Positions 46,005-51,103 of a stretch of 64,000 nucleotides of DNA are shown piece by piece. Numbering within the stretch: the stretch's first letter is position 1; each line of letters begins with the position of its first letter. Below the pieces are notes generated by a model. It did no database searches, was not told where the DNA came from, and saw nothing but the letters and a program-made list of their open reading frames with translations. The position numbers and the translations under genes are program-made. The stretch is from Clostridia bacterium (GTDB taxonomy: Bacteria; Bacillota; Clostridia; Christensenellales; Aristaeellaceae), in assembly GCA_017541105.1 (NCBI GenBank), contig JAFXZS010000008.1, positions 124,001-188,000 of the forward strand, given 5' to 3'.

Positions 46005-46223
46005 ATGCAAGATACAAAAAGCTCTCAGCTGAACGAAAACGAGCTGGATAAGGTTAACGGCGGTTACGATATCCCCTCTCCCTATTATGCCCCTCCGGGC
46101 GGATACCCGCATAACAGGCCCCACTTTACATGCAGGTGTGGATTTCAAACAGCGAGTCCGGATGAATACGCGAGCCACATCGCTCAAAACCCCGACCACA
46201 TTAATATGCGTTATGGTCGGTAA
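46005..46223 (+). CDS. Double-glycine leader peptide with C2H2 zinc-finger-like core
   Basis: This 72-residue peptide begins with a bacteriocin-type leader (LNENELDKVNGG) whose GG at residues 19-20 would be cut by a C39-peptidase exporter. The remaining 52 residues are Pro/Tyr/Gly-rich, then carry C43 and C45 and H58 and H65 (CRCGF...H...H) in a zinc-finger-like spacing. ATG at 46005 follows AAAGGAG. No immunity protein or C39 exporter is adjacent; exporter and role are unknown. The frame continues after its TAA into the rubrerythrin-like fragment. Confidence 0.72.
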   Translation: MQDTKSSQLNENELDKVNGGYDIPSPYYAPPGGYPHNRPHFTCRCGFQTASPDEYASHIAQNPDHINMRYGR

Positions 46224-46873: not shown

Positions 46874-46917
46874 CCCGCATTGCAAATCACCGCCAAACCT
46901 TCAGAAGTCTGACATAA

Positions 46918-46946
46918 AACCGGCGCCTCGTGCAGAGGCGCCGGTT
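46918..46946. terminator. Strong bidirectional terminator
   Basis: Perfect AACCGGCGCCTC/GAGGCGCCGGTT stem with loop GTGCA; it ends both the GlsB gene and the radical SAM peptide operon. Confidence 0.88.
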
Positions 46947-46990
46947 CAATCATTTCAAGCGAAATCACCTGTACTTATTAAAACAGGCAA

Positions 46991-47209
46991 TCAGTTTCCG
47001 CAGTCATAAGTTGCATTACTGACCTGTTTTCCGCCGGACAGGTCAAGGCCGCACTGGTAATCGGGCATCAGTGAGGAATGGCAGTCATAGTTTTCGTTGG
47101 AAACCATGTAGGTCTGCTTTGCGCCTGCTCCGTGGCCTGACGCAACTACGGTCTCCTCATAATCAAACTCGATCATTTCCACGACAGGGGATTCATAGGT
47201 CTTCTTCAT
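46991..47209 (-). CDS. Putative radical SAM-modified precursor peptide with three Tyr-X-Cys motifs
   Basis: This 72-residue peptide has a leader-like N-terminus (MKKTYESPVVEMIEFDYEE, the KYExPxVExIxF type seen in Clostridial precursor peptides) and a core with three spaced Y-x-C motifs: YDC at 41-43, YQC at 51-53 and YDC at 68-70. It has no other Cys. A strong AAGGAG precedes the ATG. It lies 67 bp downstream of a radical SAM/SPASM gene on the same strand, with no terminator between. It is probably the substrate for that enzyme. It has no known close family in my memory, so the call is inferred from layout. Confidence 0.75.
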   Translation of the reverse strand: MKKTYESPVVEMIEFDYEETVVASGHGAGAKQTYMVSNENYDCHSSLMPDYQCGLDLSGGKQVSNATYDCGN

Positions 47210-47276
47210 TGTTCTCTCTCCTTCTTTCTTATTTATTCACAAACCAGCTTCCCGGTCACGCGAATCATATTTTGAG

Positions 47277-48422
47277 TCATTCACACTCCGGAATCTTCAT
47301 GAGGCCGTGCTGGGCCAAATATATGACCCTCTCACATAACTCAGTTGGCTGTTTTCCCGGTTCGGCATATTGCAGCATAATCCCAGCGCAGCGGTAACAT
47401 GTCTCATAATAAGCACAATCTTTACATTCCGGGACTCTCGGCCAGTTGTTAACCTCCTGATGAATCTTTGCCCACGCTGCTCTGAATCCGTCCTGAAGCA
47501 GGTCTGCATGAATCATCTCCAGACTGTTGCAGGGCATCAGGGATCCTTTCCAGTTGACCACAAATCCCGCCCGTCCGCCGCCGCATTCCAGGCCGCACTG
47601 TTCGCATTCATGGAAAGGTCCGCCGGCCGGAGGAAGCTTCTCCGGATCAATCTCCCTGGTTTCGATTCCGTCCAGTTCATTCATCAATCTGAAAATGCGG
47701 ACATAATAGTCTGCATCCAGATCATCCAGTTGGGCAGACCGCCCTGTTTCCTTTCTGGGGGCGATGATGGTGGAGTTAACCATCACTTTAGGGGTAATGC
47801 TTCTGGCAAAACGTATAGTCTCCAGTACATCCTCACCCAGATACTTGCTAGGTGTGATTACCAGCCTCACATTAAGCCCCGCTTCGATGGCTTTTCGGAC
47901 GTTCTCCGTCACTGTGGTAAATGCGCGTACGCCGGTAACCCGTTCATAAACGTCGTCGTTCCATCCGTAGAGTGACACCTGAATCAACGCCGGTCTGTGC
48001 TTCAGGAAAAAATCAAGTCTCCTGCCGTCCAGCAGATAGGCATTGGTCAGAATCGTCACATCGCAGCCCAGGCTTTGCAGATACAGGTAAATCTCATCAA
48101 ATCCGGGATAGGTCAGGCATTCTCCGCCGGTCAGCGTAACGTGAATCATTCCCGCTTCCCAAGCCTGATGCATCAGATCCTTCCAGGTTTCCACCGGCAT
48201 AAGATTCTGACCGGCCAGCTGATCTGCATTCAGGTGCACGTAGCACATTTTGCAGCTGAGGTTGCACAGGGGGGTCAGTTCAAACTGCCCGCAAATCGGA
48301 ACACCCTTTTCTTTGGCTTTTCTGTCCAGATAACGGGCAAGCGATTTGTAACTCCAGATCCTTTTTCCGTTCTCCTGGCGAAGCTCTTTCAGAAACTGAA
48401 TAGCGCTTGACGAGTCCCCCAT
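47277..48422 (-). CDS. Radical SAM/SPASM peptide maturase
   Basis: This 381-residue enzyme has the SAM-cluster motif CNLSCKMC (residues 53-60), the SAM-binding GGECLTYPG and a C-terminal SPASM-type region with many Cys (from about residue 273: CEQCGLEC, MPC, CKDCAYYETCYRC) for auxiliary iron-sulfur clusters. The N-terminal 45 residues (ARYLDRKAKEKGVPICGQFELTP) match a Clostridial family seen beside short precursor peptides. ATG at 48422 follows GGGAGG; the longer open frame upstream has no ribosome site. It likely installs a crosslink in the 72-residue peptide downstream; thioether or Tyr-Cys chemistry is possible but unproven. Confidence 0.88.
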   Translation of the reverse strand: MGDSSSAIQFLKELRQENGKRIWSYKSLARYLDRKAKEKGVPICGQFELTPLCNLSCKMCYVHLNADQLAGQNLMPVETWKDLMHQAWEAGMIHVTLTGGECLTYPGFDEIYLYLQSLGCDVTILTNAYLLDGRRLDFFLKHRPALIQVSLYGWNDDVYERVTGVRAFTTVTENVRKAIEAGLNVRLVITPSKYLGEDVLETIRFARSITPKVMVNSTIIAPRKETGRSAQLDDLDADYYVRIFRLMNELDGIETREIDPEKLPPAGGPFHECEQCGLECGGGRAGFVVNWKGSLMPCNSLEMIHADLLQDGFRAAWAKIHQEVNNWPRVPECKDCAYYETCYRCAGIMLQYAEPGKQPTELCERVIYLAQHGLMKIPECE

Positions 48423-48457: not shown

Positions 48458-48486
48458 ATTCTACAGGAAAAAGTGCCGACTGTAAA
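48458..48486 (-). promoter_or_regulatory. Promoter for the radical SAM peptide operon
   Basis: On the minus strand TTTACA and TAGAAT with 17-bp spacing, 36 bp upstream of the start codon. Confidence 0.65.
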
Positions 48487-48971: not shown

Positions 48972-49283
48972 ATGGCCCGGATCACTTACACGTATCAGTA
49001 CAAGAACTACCCGGACTGTCCAAAGGCAACCAGACTGTCCAAATTCTGGTGCAGCCCCAGGCATGGCGGATTCATCGGGATGGCGGTCGGGATTGTAATC
49101 ATGCTGCTCGGCGCTCTTGTTTACAACGCCAACGGGCATCATCTCGGCGCGGTGGATGTCATTTTGATGCTGTTGGGATTCGGATTCTTTCTGTTCGGCG
49201 CCCTCCTGGTTCCCGCTCTGTTCAAGCTCTTCAGAATATCCGACAGGGTATATGAGAAAGAAACCGGGAAGAAGATCAACTGA
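48972..49283 (+). CDS. Small membrane protein with two helices
   Basis: This 103-residue protein has two hydrophobic segments (about residues 32-53 and 60-85), an N-terminal cysteine-bearing basic stretch (YKNYPDCPKATRLSKFWCSPRHGG) and a basic C-terminus. ATG at 48972 is preceded by AGAGGTG. No family is recognised. It lies beside the acyltransferase remnant and opposite the ABC exporter, so it may be unrelated to either. Confidence 0.6.
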   Translation: MARITYTYQYKNYPDCPKATRLSKFWCSPRHGGFIGMAVGIVIMLLGALVYNANGHHLGAVDVILMLLGFGFFLFGALLVPALFKLFRISDRVYEKETGKKIN

Positions 49284-49433: not shown

Positions 49434-50219
49434 TTACCGGATATCCTTTGTACAGTACTTCCGATAAGCAAGCGCAATCCCGCAGGCCGCGAAGGCTGCC
49501 CCGGCCAGAATCCTGTCCGCGTGCAGTGAGCCTGCGGAAAGGATCTCTGCCCCGTCTGCGTATCCGAAGGGTGTCAGATATTTCAGAAAATCGGCTTTTT
49601 CCGTCAGATTCGCAATGATATTCATAAAGTACAGTGCGATAGCCAGCCCAAGGCCGATTCCCATTCCGCCCTTCCACAGGAAGGCGGAAATACCGAAGCA
49701 GATGCAGGCCAGCTCAATCTGCATCAGGAAGAAGGCCAGATGCAGTAAAAACATTTCCTTCCAGGGAATCTCTTCGCCGATAGCGGCAGCGCTCCCGATG
49801 CTCATCAGAAATACCGCGGCATTCAGCAGCACAATCTGAATCAGGACAGCCGCCAGTTTGTCCGTCACAATTTCCGCCCGGCTCAGGGGATGTGTCAGCA
49901 GCAGTTCCGCCGTCCCGTCCTTTTCCTCCCGGGCCAGTGCCGCGATACCGATCAGCGCGGCAAACAATGCGCCGCCGATCCCCAGTACATTTCCGCACTC
50001 AATGGCGTAGTATCCTGTCAGGGTGCCGAAATTCAGCTTATCCATGCCAAATGCTTTCGTAAAGGAACCCATGGATGCAAACATGGAAGAGAAGGAGTCC
50101 ATCTGCCCCTTCATCTCCGGGAAAAGGATTAAGCAGATCACAAGAAACATGCCGATCGCGCCGGTCCAGATCAGCAGAGTCTTCCATCCCCGCCTGAGTT
50201 CATGCCGAATCAGTGTCAT
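49434..50219 (-). CDS. ABC-2 type exporter permease
   Basis: This 261-residue protein has six hydrophobic segments (WTGAIGMFLVICLI, IGGALFAALIGIAALA, AAVLIQIVLLNAAVFLM, FLLHLAFFLMQIELACICF, GLAIALYFMNIIANL, and a C-terminal AGAAFAACGIALAY). It matches ABC-2 permeases of the NatB/YfiM group. Its start overlaps the ATPase gene end (ATGA, 50216-50219). The exported substrate is unknown; the radical SAM peptide locus 1 kb downstream makes peptide export or self-protection possible. Confidence 0.88.
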   Translation of the reverse strand: MTLIRHELRRGWKTLLIWTGAIGMFLVICLILFPEMKGQMDSFSSMFASMGSFTKAFGMDKLNFGTLTGYYAIECGNVLGIGGALFAALIGIAALAREEKDGTAELLLTHPLSRAEIVTDKLAAVLIQIVLLNAAVFLMSIGSAAAIGEEIPWKEMFLLHLAFFLMQIELACICFGISAFLWKGGMGIGLGLAIALYFMNIIANLTEKADFLKYLTPFGYADGAEILSAGSLHADRILAGAAFAACGIALAYRKYCTKDIR

Positions 50220-51103
50220 GCCTCCTCACTTCCTTCCCCGTAATAGTGCAGGATAATCTCTTCGAGATCCGGTTCAGCAATGGTAAGATCCTGAATTTCC
50301 AGATCCGCAAGCTTCCGGATCAGTTCCCGGATCTCTCCGCTGTACAGGAAACTGATGATTCCTTCCTCTTCCTTCCAGCCCTTCAGATCCGGCAGATCCT
50401 CCCGCCTGACATTCCCCCGCAGCGTAACCCTGCGGGCATTGGAGCGGGCCAGCCTCTCCACGCTGTCGCACGCAATCACACGGCCTTCCCGGATGACCGC
50501 TGCCTGCGTGCAGTGCCGCTGGATTTCGCTCAGCACATGGCTGGACAGAAACACTGTCACTCCTTTTTCGTTTTCTTCCTGCAGAATATCGAAAAATTCA
50601 TGCTGAATCAGCGGATCCAGGCCACCGGTGGGCTCATCCAGGATCAGCAGTTCCGGGCTGTGCTGCAGCGCGCACGCGATTCCGACCTTCTTCCGGTTGC
50701 CGAAGGACAGATCCTCCACCTTCTTCGACAGATCCAGCTGCAGCCGACGGCATAGCTCGGACGCCCGGACACTGCAATCCTTTTTCCTCAGCCCGGCGGA
50801 AAGTTTCAGGATATCCCCCACGCGCATTCCCATGTAGAACGCGTTGTCAGAAGGCAGGTAGCCCACCCGCTCAAGAATCTTCCGTTTTTCCTTTGTGATA
50901 TCCTTATCCAGCACCCTGCCTCTGCCCGAATCCGGGCTGATCAGCCCCAGCAGAGTCCTGATCGTCGTGGATTTGCCCGCCCCGTTGGGGCCGATAAAAC
51001 CGAAGAAAGCCCCTTTTTCCACTGTCAGGCTCAGTTTGTCAATCCCTCTTGTTTTTCCGTAATACTTGGTCAGTGCTTCCGCTTCGATCGCATAGCCTGC
51101 CAT
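50216..51103 (-). CDS. ABC transporter ATP-binding protein
   Basis: This 295-residue ATPase has Walker A GPNGAGKSTT, Q-loop, signature LSFGNRKK, Walker B LLILDEPTGGLDP and switch H in FLSSHVL, followed by a C-terminal extension (about residues 210-295, with YSGEIRELIRKLADLEI) typical of ABC-2 exporters that also regulate the pump. ATG at 51103 follows AGGAGG-like sequence. It forms a two-gene operon with the permease. Confidence 0.92.
   Translation of the reverse strand: MAGYAIEAEALTKYYGKTRGIDKLSLTVEKGAFFGFIGPNGAGKSTTIRTLLGLISPDSGRGRVLDKDITKEKRKILERVGYLPSDNAFYMGMRVGDILKLSAGLRKKDCSVRASELCRRLQLDLSKKVEDLSFGNRKKVGIACALQHSPELLILDEPTGGLDPLIQHEFFDILQEENEKGVTVFLSSHVLSEIQRHCTQAAVIREGRVIACDSVERLARSNARRVTLRGNVRREDLPDLKGWKEEEGIISFLYSGEIRELIRKLADLEIQDLTIAEPDLEEIILHYYGEGSEEA

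Follow-up and report, generated by a model that had tools for sequence, protein, structure and literature searches.

A putative two-gene RiPP cassette from a Clostridia bacterium: a radical SAM/SPASM maturase beside a precursor peptide with a YxxP leader and a Cys-bearing core

Several described systems resemble the locus reported here in part. The SynChlorMet cassette combines the proteins ScmF, ScmE, and ScmC with a PqqD-like protein, ScmD. In sactipeptides (SkfB/SKF, AlbA/subtilosin), a SPASM radical SAM maturase stands beside a small Cys-bearing precursor, whose leader carries an HIxxI motif according to passages of PMC12710340. The ranthipeptides (PapB, CteB) likewise depend on radical SAM/SPASM enzymes, and their Cys thioether chemistry is a candidate for the present locus. 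In the triceptides, the enzymes XncB, OscB, and MscB make three-residue cyclophanes between an aromatic residue i and a partner at i+2 (excerpts of PMC11002830). Lasso peptides of rumen Clostridia have YxxP leaders, with genes for PqqD, HPr-kinase-like, and nucleotidyltransferase proteins nearby (excerpts of PMC7533575 and PMC10368454); PMC12710340 and PMC10368454 describe YxxP as the motif by which lasso peptide leaders are recognised, and the former also as a known RRE recognition sequence.

We analysed a stretch of 64,000 nucleotides (hereafter the window) from a Clostridia bacterium (GenBank assembly GCA_017541105.1, contig JAFXZS010000008.1). The gene at 47277..48422 on its minus strand starts with ATG at 48422 and encodes a protein of 381 aa; the frame stays open farther 5', and the protein would be 469 aa long if read from an earlier ATG. 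Directly 5' of the gene lies a weak candidate for a sigma-70-like promoter (48458..48486, minus strand), such sites being no commoner than in shuffled sequence. The first-pass annotation had described a 381-residue radical SAM enzyme with SPASM-type extra Cys ligands, and this description held: the protein matched PF04055 at 73.4 bits (Pfam), and an alignment of 58 enzymes, with the window's among them, showed a seven-Cys SPASM pattern (C280, C298, C333, C336, C342, C345, and C363) conserved in 98% or more, as were the CxxxCxxC residues C53, C57, and C60. The SPASM model PF13186 itself gave 17.3 bits, below the Pfam cut-off of 21.5. The AlphaFold model of the window enzyme was confident (mean pLDDT 91.3), and a profile of the family searched against PDB sequences found SkfB (6efn) as the nearest solved enzyme at 92 bits, the next match scoring 51; on these grounds we assign the protein as a radical SAM/SPASM peptide maturase. 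One more cysteine, C102, stands right behind the GGE motif (GGEC) in 98% of the 58 enzymes, outside both cluster patterns.

When three enzymes of the family were compared with NCBIfam, none of the best 25 models for each (of 66, 52, and 51 models matched) reached its cut-off. The sactipeptide model AlbA scored 43.3 bits against a cut-off of 850 and SkfB 47.9 against 300, with StsB also far below its cut-off, and the ranthipeptide model PapB aligned with residues 49-343 at 35.5 of 340 bits. Unlike in sactipeptides, no RRE domain was found on the window enzyme, and the PqqD domain of its relatives is either separate or fused to an HprK-like protein; the leader motif is YxxP rather than HIxxI. 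The Y-x-C motif of the window peptide has the spacing of the triceptides, but the partner residue is Cys, and aromatic-x-Cys is largely confined to one clade of the enzymes. The lasso-like features of the family are accompanied by a radical SAM enzyme, and the lasso B2 protease (PF13471) was over cut-off in none of 7 genomes, with sub-threshold matches in three, so we rejected a lasso peptide identity. The resemblance to the SynChlorMet cassette was weak: the enzyme scored 55.7 bits against ScmF and 45 against ScmE, and the relatives' HprK-like protein 16.5-17.2 bits against ScmC, all far below the respective cut-offs of 400, 400, and 125. The combination of a radical SAM maturase, a leader motif of the lasso type, and a fusion of HprK-like protein and PqqD apparently represents an undescribed family; none of the titles and abstract openings found in searches of open-licence PMC literature describes this enzyme-leader pairing.

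The putative precursor gene (46991..47209, minus strand) follows the enzyme gene after a gap of 67 nt. It encodes 72 aa with the leader MKKTYESPVVEMIEFDYEETVVAS and is preceded by a ribosome-binding site, aaggagag, at 47216..47223, as read from the sequence. The leader region would span approximately residues 1-24 (47138..47209), comprising YxxP and a conserved V-x-A-S end, after which cleavage may occur. As first described, the peptide has three Cys, each two residues after a Tyr, in the order YDC, YQC, and YDC (Tyr at residues 41, 51, and 68); this applies to all three core Cys, and three Y-x-C arose in 30 of 200,000 shuffles of the 48-residue core. The earlier remark that the peptide fits no named class also stood, with zero model matches in Pfam and NCBIfam at E values up to 1. 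Beyond the 3' end of the gene, a 13-bp hairpin with a weak U tract (46917..46947, minus strand) possibly marks the transcript end: the whole folded stretch reached -29.1 kcal/mol versus a shuffled mean of -13.8 (z -6.3). The hairpin is absent from a terminator listing of the region.

Relatives of the enzyme came from three sources: the bacterial family (300 genomes, of which 45 matched at 1e-40, the window's own genome counted), the genus (45 genomes, an overlapping set, of which 7 matched at 1e-100), and 27 loci of named genome records. After removal of duplicates, 72 enzyme matches remained, of which 58 had at least 240 bits, 12 were weaker, and 2 were fragments of one frameshifted gene (L046). 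The 58 strong enzymes are the window's and others 37-64% identical to it (tblastn). The L046 fragments and one 21-aa peptide fragment were left out of the counts. Among the 55 of the 58 enzymes with at least 600 nt of downstream sequence, 41 (the window's counted) had on the same strand a downstream peptide that shares the leader and ends no more than 1 kb away. Five of the other 14 had such a peptide upstream or on the opposite strand, one of these being weak. Applied to 5319 candidate ORFs, the leader profile matched 76 rows on the enzyme strand versus 2 on the other, some peptides counting for two neighbouring enzymes.

A genome-wide search for the leader served as a control and is stronger evidence than the downstream-pairing count. 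The window's genome had 5 leader matches, 4 of which adjoin family enzymes, the fifth being an orphan. In six other enzyme-bearing genomes, each of the 16 matches has a family enzyme beside it. No match came from six genomes of the genus in which the enzyme search at 1e-40 had found nothing. In the 13 genomes together, 20 of 21 leader matches lie beside a family enzyme. The recurrence of the leader beside the relatives upholds its earlier description as leader-like, and the sequence comparisons support the proposal that the two window genes form a RiPP maturase-precursor pair. The orphan precursor of the window's genome (L094:6813-6992, minus strand) shares this leader and has YAC in its core; it adjoins genes for an apparent glycyl-radical enzyme and its activase, named by a look at their sequences, instead of a family maturase.

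The leader consensus reads K-K-x-Y-E-x-P-x-[AV]-E-K-[ILV]-E-F-D-Y-x-[DE]-x-V-[VT]-A-S (in short, KKxYExPxxEKxxFDYxxxVVAS). YxxP was present in 59 of 60 leaders, a constancy that is partly circular because the seeds of the profile had been picked by YxxP. The cores are hypervariable in length and sequence, and Cys appears to be their nearly invariant residue: it occurred in 46 of 47 nonredundant cores (L021 is Cys-free), with two to four Cys in 41 and a single one in L020, L026, and L071. It made up 119 of 1768 core residues (6.7%) versus 3 of 1139 leader residues (0.3%). One core, GNGDVGRGRGRGGGCDGVPYHRNQRTFSSGRNSGC, recurs nearly unchanged at L008, L012, L016, L017, L041, L042, and L065, where the adjoining enzymes are 48-53% identical to the window's. 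Another precursor, that of the hub cluster L059, has a run of GGQNN repeats between Cys residues.

In complete relatives, the neighbouring genes encode a PqqD domain, either as a protein of its own or joined to an HprK-like P-loop protein, as well as an ABC exporter and a signal-peptidase-like protein (TIGR02228, 39.3 of 51.85 bits). The protein L059:2119-3210 is such an HprK-like-PqqD fusion; its C-terminal PqqD part scored 52.6 bits, and its likeness to HprK was weak, the Pfam model giving 14.7 of 33.3 bits and the NCBIfam model 19.8 of 200. We surveyed the surroundings of 28 enzymes, reaching 2.5 kb upstream and 4 kb downstream (30 had been picked by length; L075_5020 and L077_4917 could not be oriented). 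Of these 28, 16 had PqqD nearby, 14 the HprK-like protein, 12 the peptidase, 9 the exporter, and 4 NTP_transf_5. At the genome level, PqqD was present in 20 of 21 genomes with an enzyme and in 7 of 20 genomes of the genus that lack one (Fisher 5e-5); the count inside the genus alone (6 of 7 versus 7 of 20, p 0.03) is the fairer one because 14 of the 21 enzyme-bearing genomes belong to other genera.

Near the window cassette, no PqqD, HprK-like, or signal-peptidase-like gene and no exporter of the family type was found. The window's genome has one PqqD over cut-off, approximately 32 kb from the cassette on the same contig, within a complete paralogous cluster (L059); it also has two more bare cassettes (L058, L060) besides the orphan precursor, these counts being lower bounds because the genome is 62% complete. 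In a second genome, G091 (97% complete), a single PqqD match stands beside four enzymes and five leader peptides in all. As both genomes have one PqqD each for several enzymes and precursors, we infer that one complete cluster serves as a hub, with bare cassettes and orphan precursors as satellites that would use its helpers in trans. Eight of the 12 PqqD-less cassettes are in genomes with a PqqD of more than 50 bits elsewhere (three each in G000 and G091, one each in G082 and G301). Counting against the hub reading, three are in genomes without a convincing PqqD (two in G195, with a 25-bit match only, and one in G305, which is 60% complete), and the genome of the last, L035, fell outside the PqqD check. 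There is a described parallel in that PqqD serves PqqE in trans (excerpt of PMC8326336).

An ABC-2 exporter had been reported 1 kb upstream of the enzyme gene on the same strand. Its position was as described (permease at 49434-50219 and ATPase at 50216-51103, both on the minus strand), but its membership in the system did not hold up: the permease adjoins 1 of the 28 enzymes examined, the window's own, and a plus-strand ORF (48972-49283) separates the ABC-2 genes from the enzyme gene. We therefore rejected it as a component, and it is probably unrelated to the cassette. Another neighbour, at 46005-46223 on the plus strand, is an ORF of 72 aa whose product has a double-glycine leader like that of bacteriocins, LNENELDKVNGG, and a tail containing CxC. 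It scored 14.6 of 15.7 bits against TIGR01847 and had two weak matches besides itself in 45 genomes of the genus.

The family was sampled more widely at the level of the order, where 3 of 396 genomes matched at E 1e-70, all three in the same bacterial family. Relatives 51-59% identical also occur in records titled Lachnospiraceae, Oscillospiraceae, and Blautia (titles as given, not GTDB placements), and the record titles of the relatives' genomes include rumen and gut samples. A viral origin was rejected, since of three pattern matches in viral_contigs none encodes a relative. Eleven enzymes from other Clostridia records are 27-33% identical (tblastn) and have no peptide with the family leader within 1 kb downstream; one weak match lies approximately 2 kb upstream (L049). 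In five of these distant loci (L048, L049, L050, L056, and L057), other small Cys-bearing ORFs start 1.2-1.4 kb upstream of the enzyme, and the two together are perhaps a sister system.

We favour, with a probability of roughly 0.55, a two-gene RiPP cassette in which the enzyme makes Cys-centred, probably thioether, cross-links with the help of PqqD and other proteins acting in trans. The 72-aa peptide would be the substrate of the adjoining enzyme, and a PqqD-type recognition domain, supplied by the complete paralogous cluster, would bind its YxxP leader. The enzyme would then install Cys-centred cross-links in the core, up to three in the window peptide. Thioethers between the Cys sulphur and a carbon in another residue, as in sactipeptides or ranthipeptides, are the most likely chemistry because Cys is near-constant, two to four Cys are the rule, and the nearest solved enzyme is SkfB. 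The complete cluster may also provide the last steps: its signal-peptidase-like protein would plausibly cut the leader after V-x-A-S, a conserved end that seems to fit a signal-peptidase-type site, and its ABC exporter may carry the product out of the cell.

The pattern of the Cys contexts bears on which bond is made. The first-pass annotation had suggested that the enzyme acts at the three Y-x-C, perhaps joining Cys to Tyr or to a neighbour, and proposed to look for its conservation in homologues. We examined this in the relatives with the window core excluded, the nearest set being the enzymes at least 55% identical to the window's (19 cores, 17 without near-copies). Strict Y-x-C was not clearly enriched in the nearest set (6 of 17 cores, expected 3.2, p 0.08), and with 7 of 45 cores among all relatives (p 0.38) we rejected it as a motif of the whole family. 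The wider motif [YFW]-x-C was enriched near the window enzyme, with 11 of 17 cores versus 4.7 expected (p 0.0006), and only there: it occurred in 0 of 10 cores of enzymes 45-55% identical (expected 1.3) and in 1 of 18 at 30-45% (expected 3.3). Mapped onto the enzyme tree (11 of the 58 enzymes, lacking a paired peptide, were left out), it occurred in one clade in 13 of the 18 enzymes whose peptide is known, the window's counted, versus 1 of 29 others. This clade-bound enrichment, the three of three Cys in Y-x-C in the window core, and the triceptide spacing would suit an enzyme that links the aromatic ring to the Cys two residues on (i, i+2), through a bond between a ring carbon and Cys C-beta that closes a three-residue cyclophane or through an aryl thioether, giving three rings here. 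We nevertheless regard such a bond as unlikely. Inside the clade 5 of 18 enzymes, and outside it 28 of 29, have cores that keep Cys without the aromatic residue, all 45 cores taken together show no significant excess (12, expected 9.4, p 0.20), and an aromatic residue at -3 to Cys is raised as well (p 0.005). The clade itself (19 rows) has a moderate SH-aLRT of 86. The 17 cores are not independent, several sharing WWKC or QY[YF]KC, and form about five groups by eye; in some lookalikes of the clade (GEPKCESTP, EGPHCSSS), Pro takes the aromatic place; their likeness is judged by eye, the cores aligning too weakly to prove homology. The cyclophane model AmcB, moreover, is outside the best 25 NCBIfam models for the window enzyme. 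Because the cores are kin and some lookalikes have Pro at that position, aromatic-x-Cys seems to be a real habit of the window's clade and not an invariant. The fuller version, in which a whole lineage forms such i, i+2 cross-links (cyclophane or aryl thioether, three here) while a hub supplies recognition domain, HprK-like protein, peptidase, and exporter to its satellites, strikes us as decidedly doubtful.

It is also conceivable, though improbable, that the enzyme oxidises or otherwise alters single residues, Cys or their neighbours, without any cross-link. SPASM enzymes include such chemistry, and among PDB sequences the family profile also picks up anaerobic sulfatase maturases, at a weak 36 bits; SkfB is a far better match, and hypervariable cores that mostly have two to four Cys resemble those of cross-linked RiPPs. 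That the small ORF is a chance neighbour and no substrate at all we consider highly improbable: short ORFs are common and the window core has no close relative among the collected peptides, but the genome-wide specificity of the leader, the pairing downstream of the enzymes, and the ribosome-binding site argue strongly against coincidence.

The aromatic-x-Cys clade predicts a concrete bond, one that did not occur in the passages of literature examined. The family defined here comprises dozens of enzyme-precursor pairs whose cores differ greatly behind a common leader, and such a shared-leader system allows a test of how many maturases one recognition module can serve.
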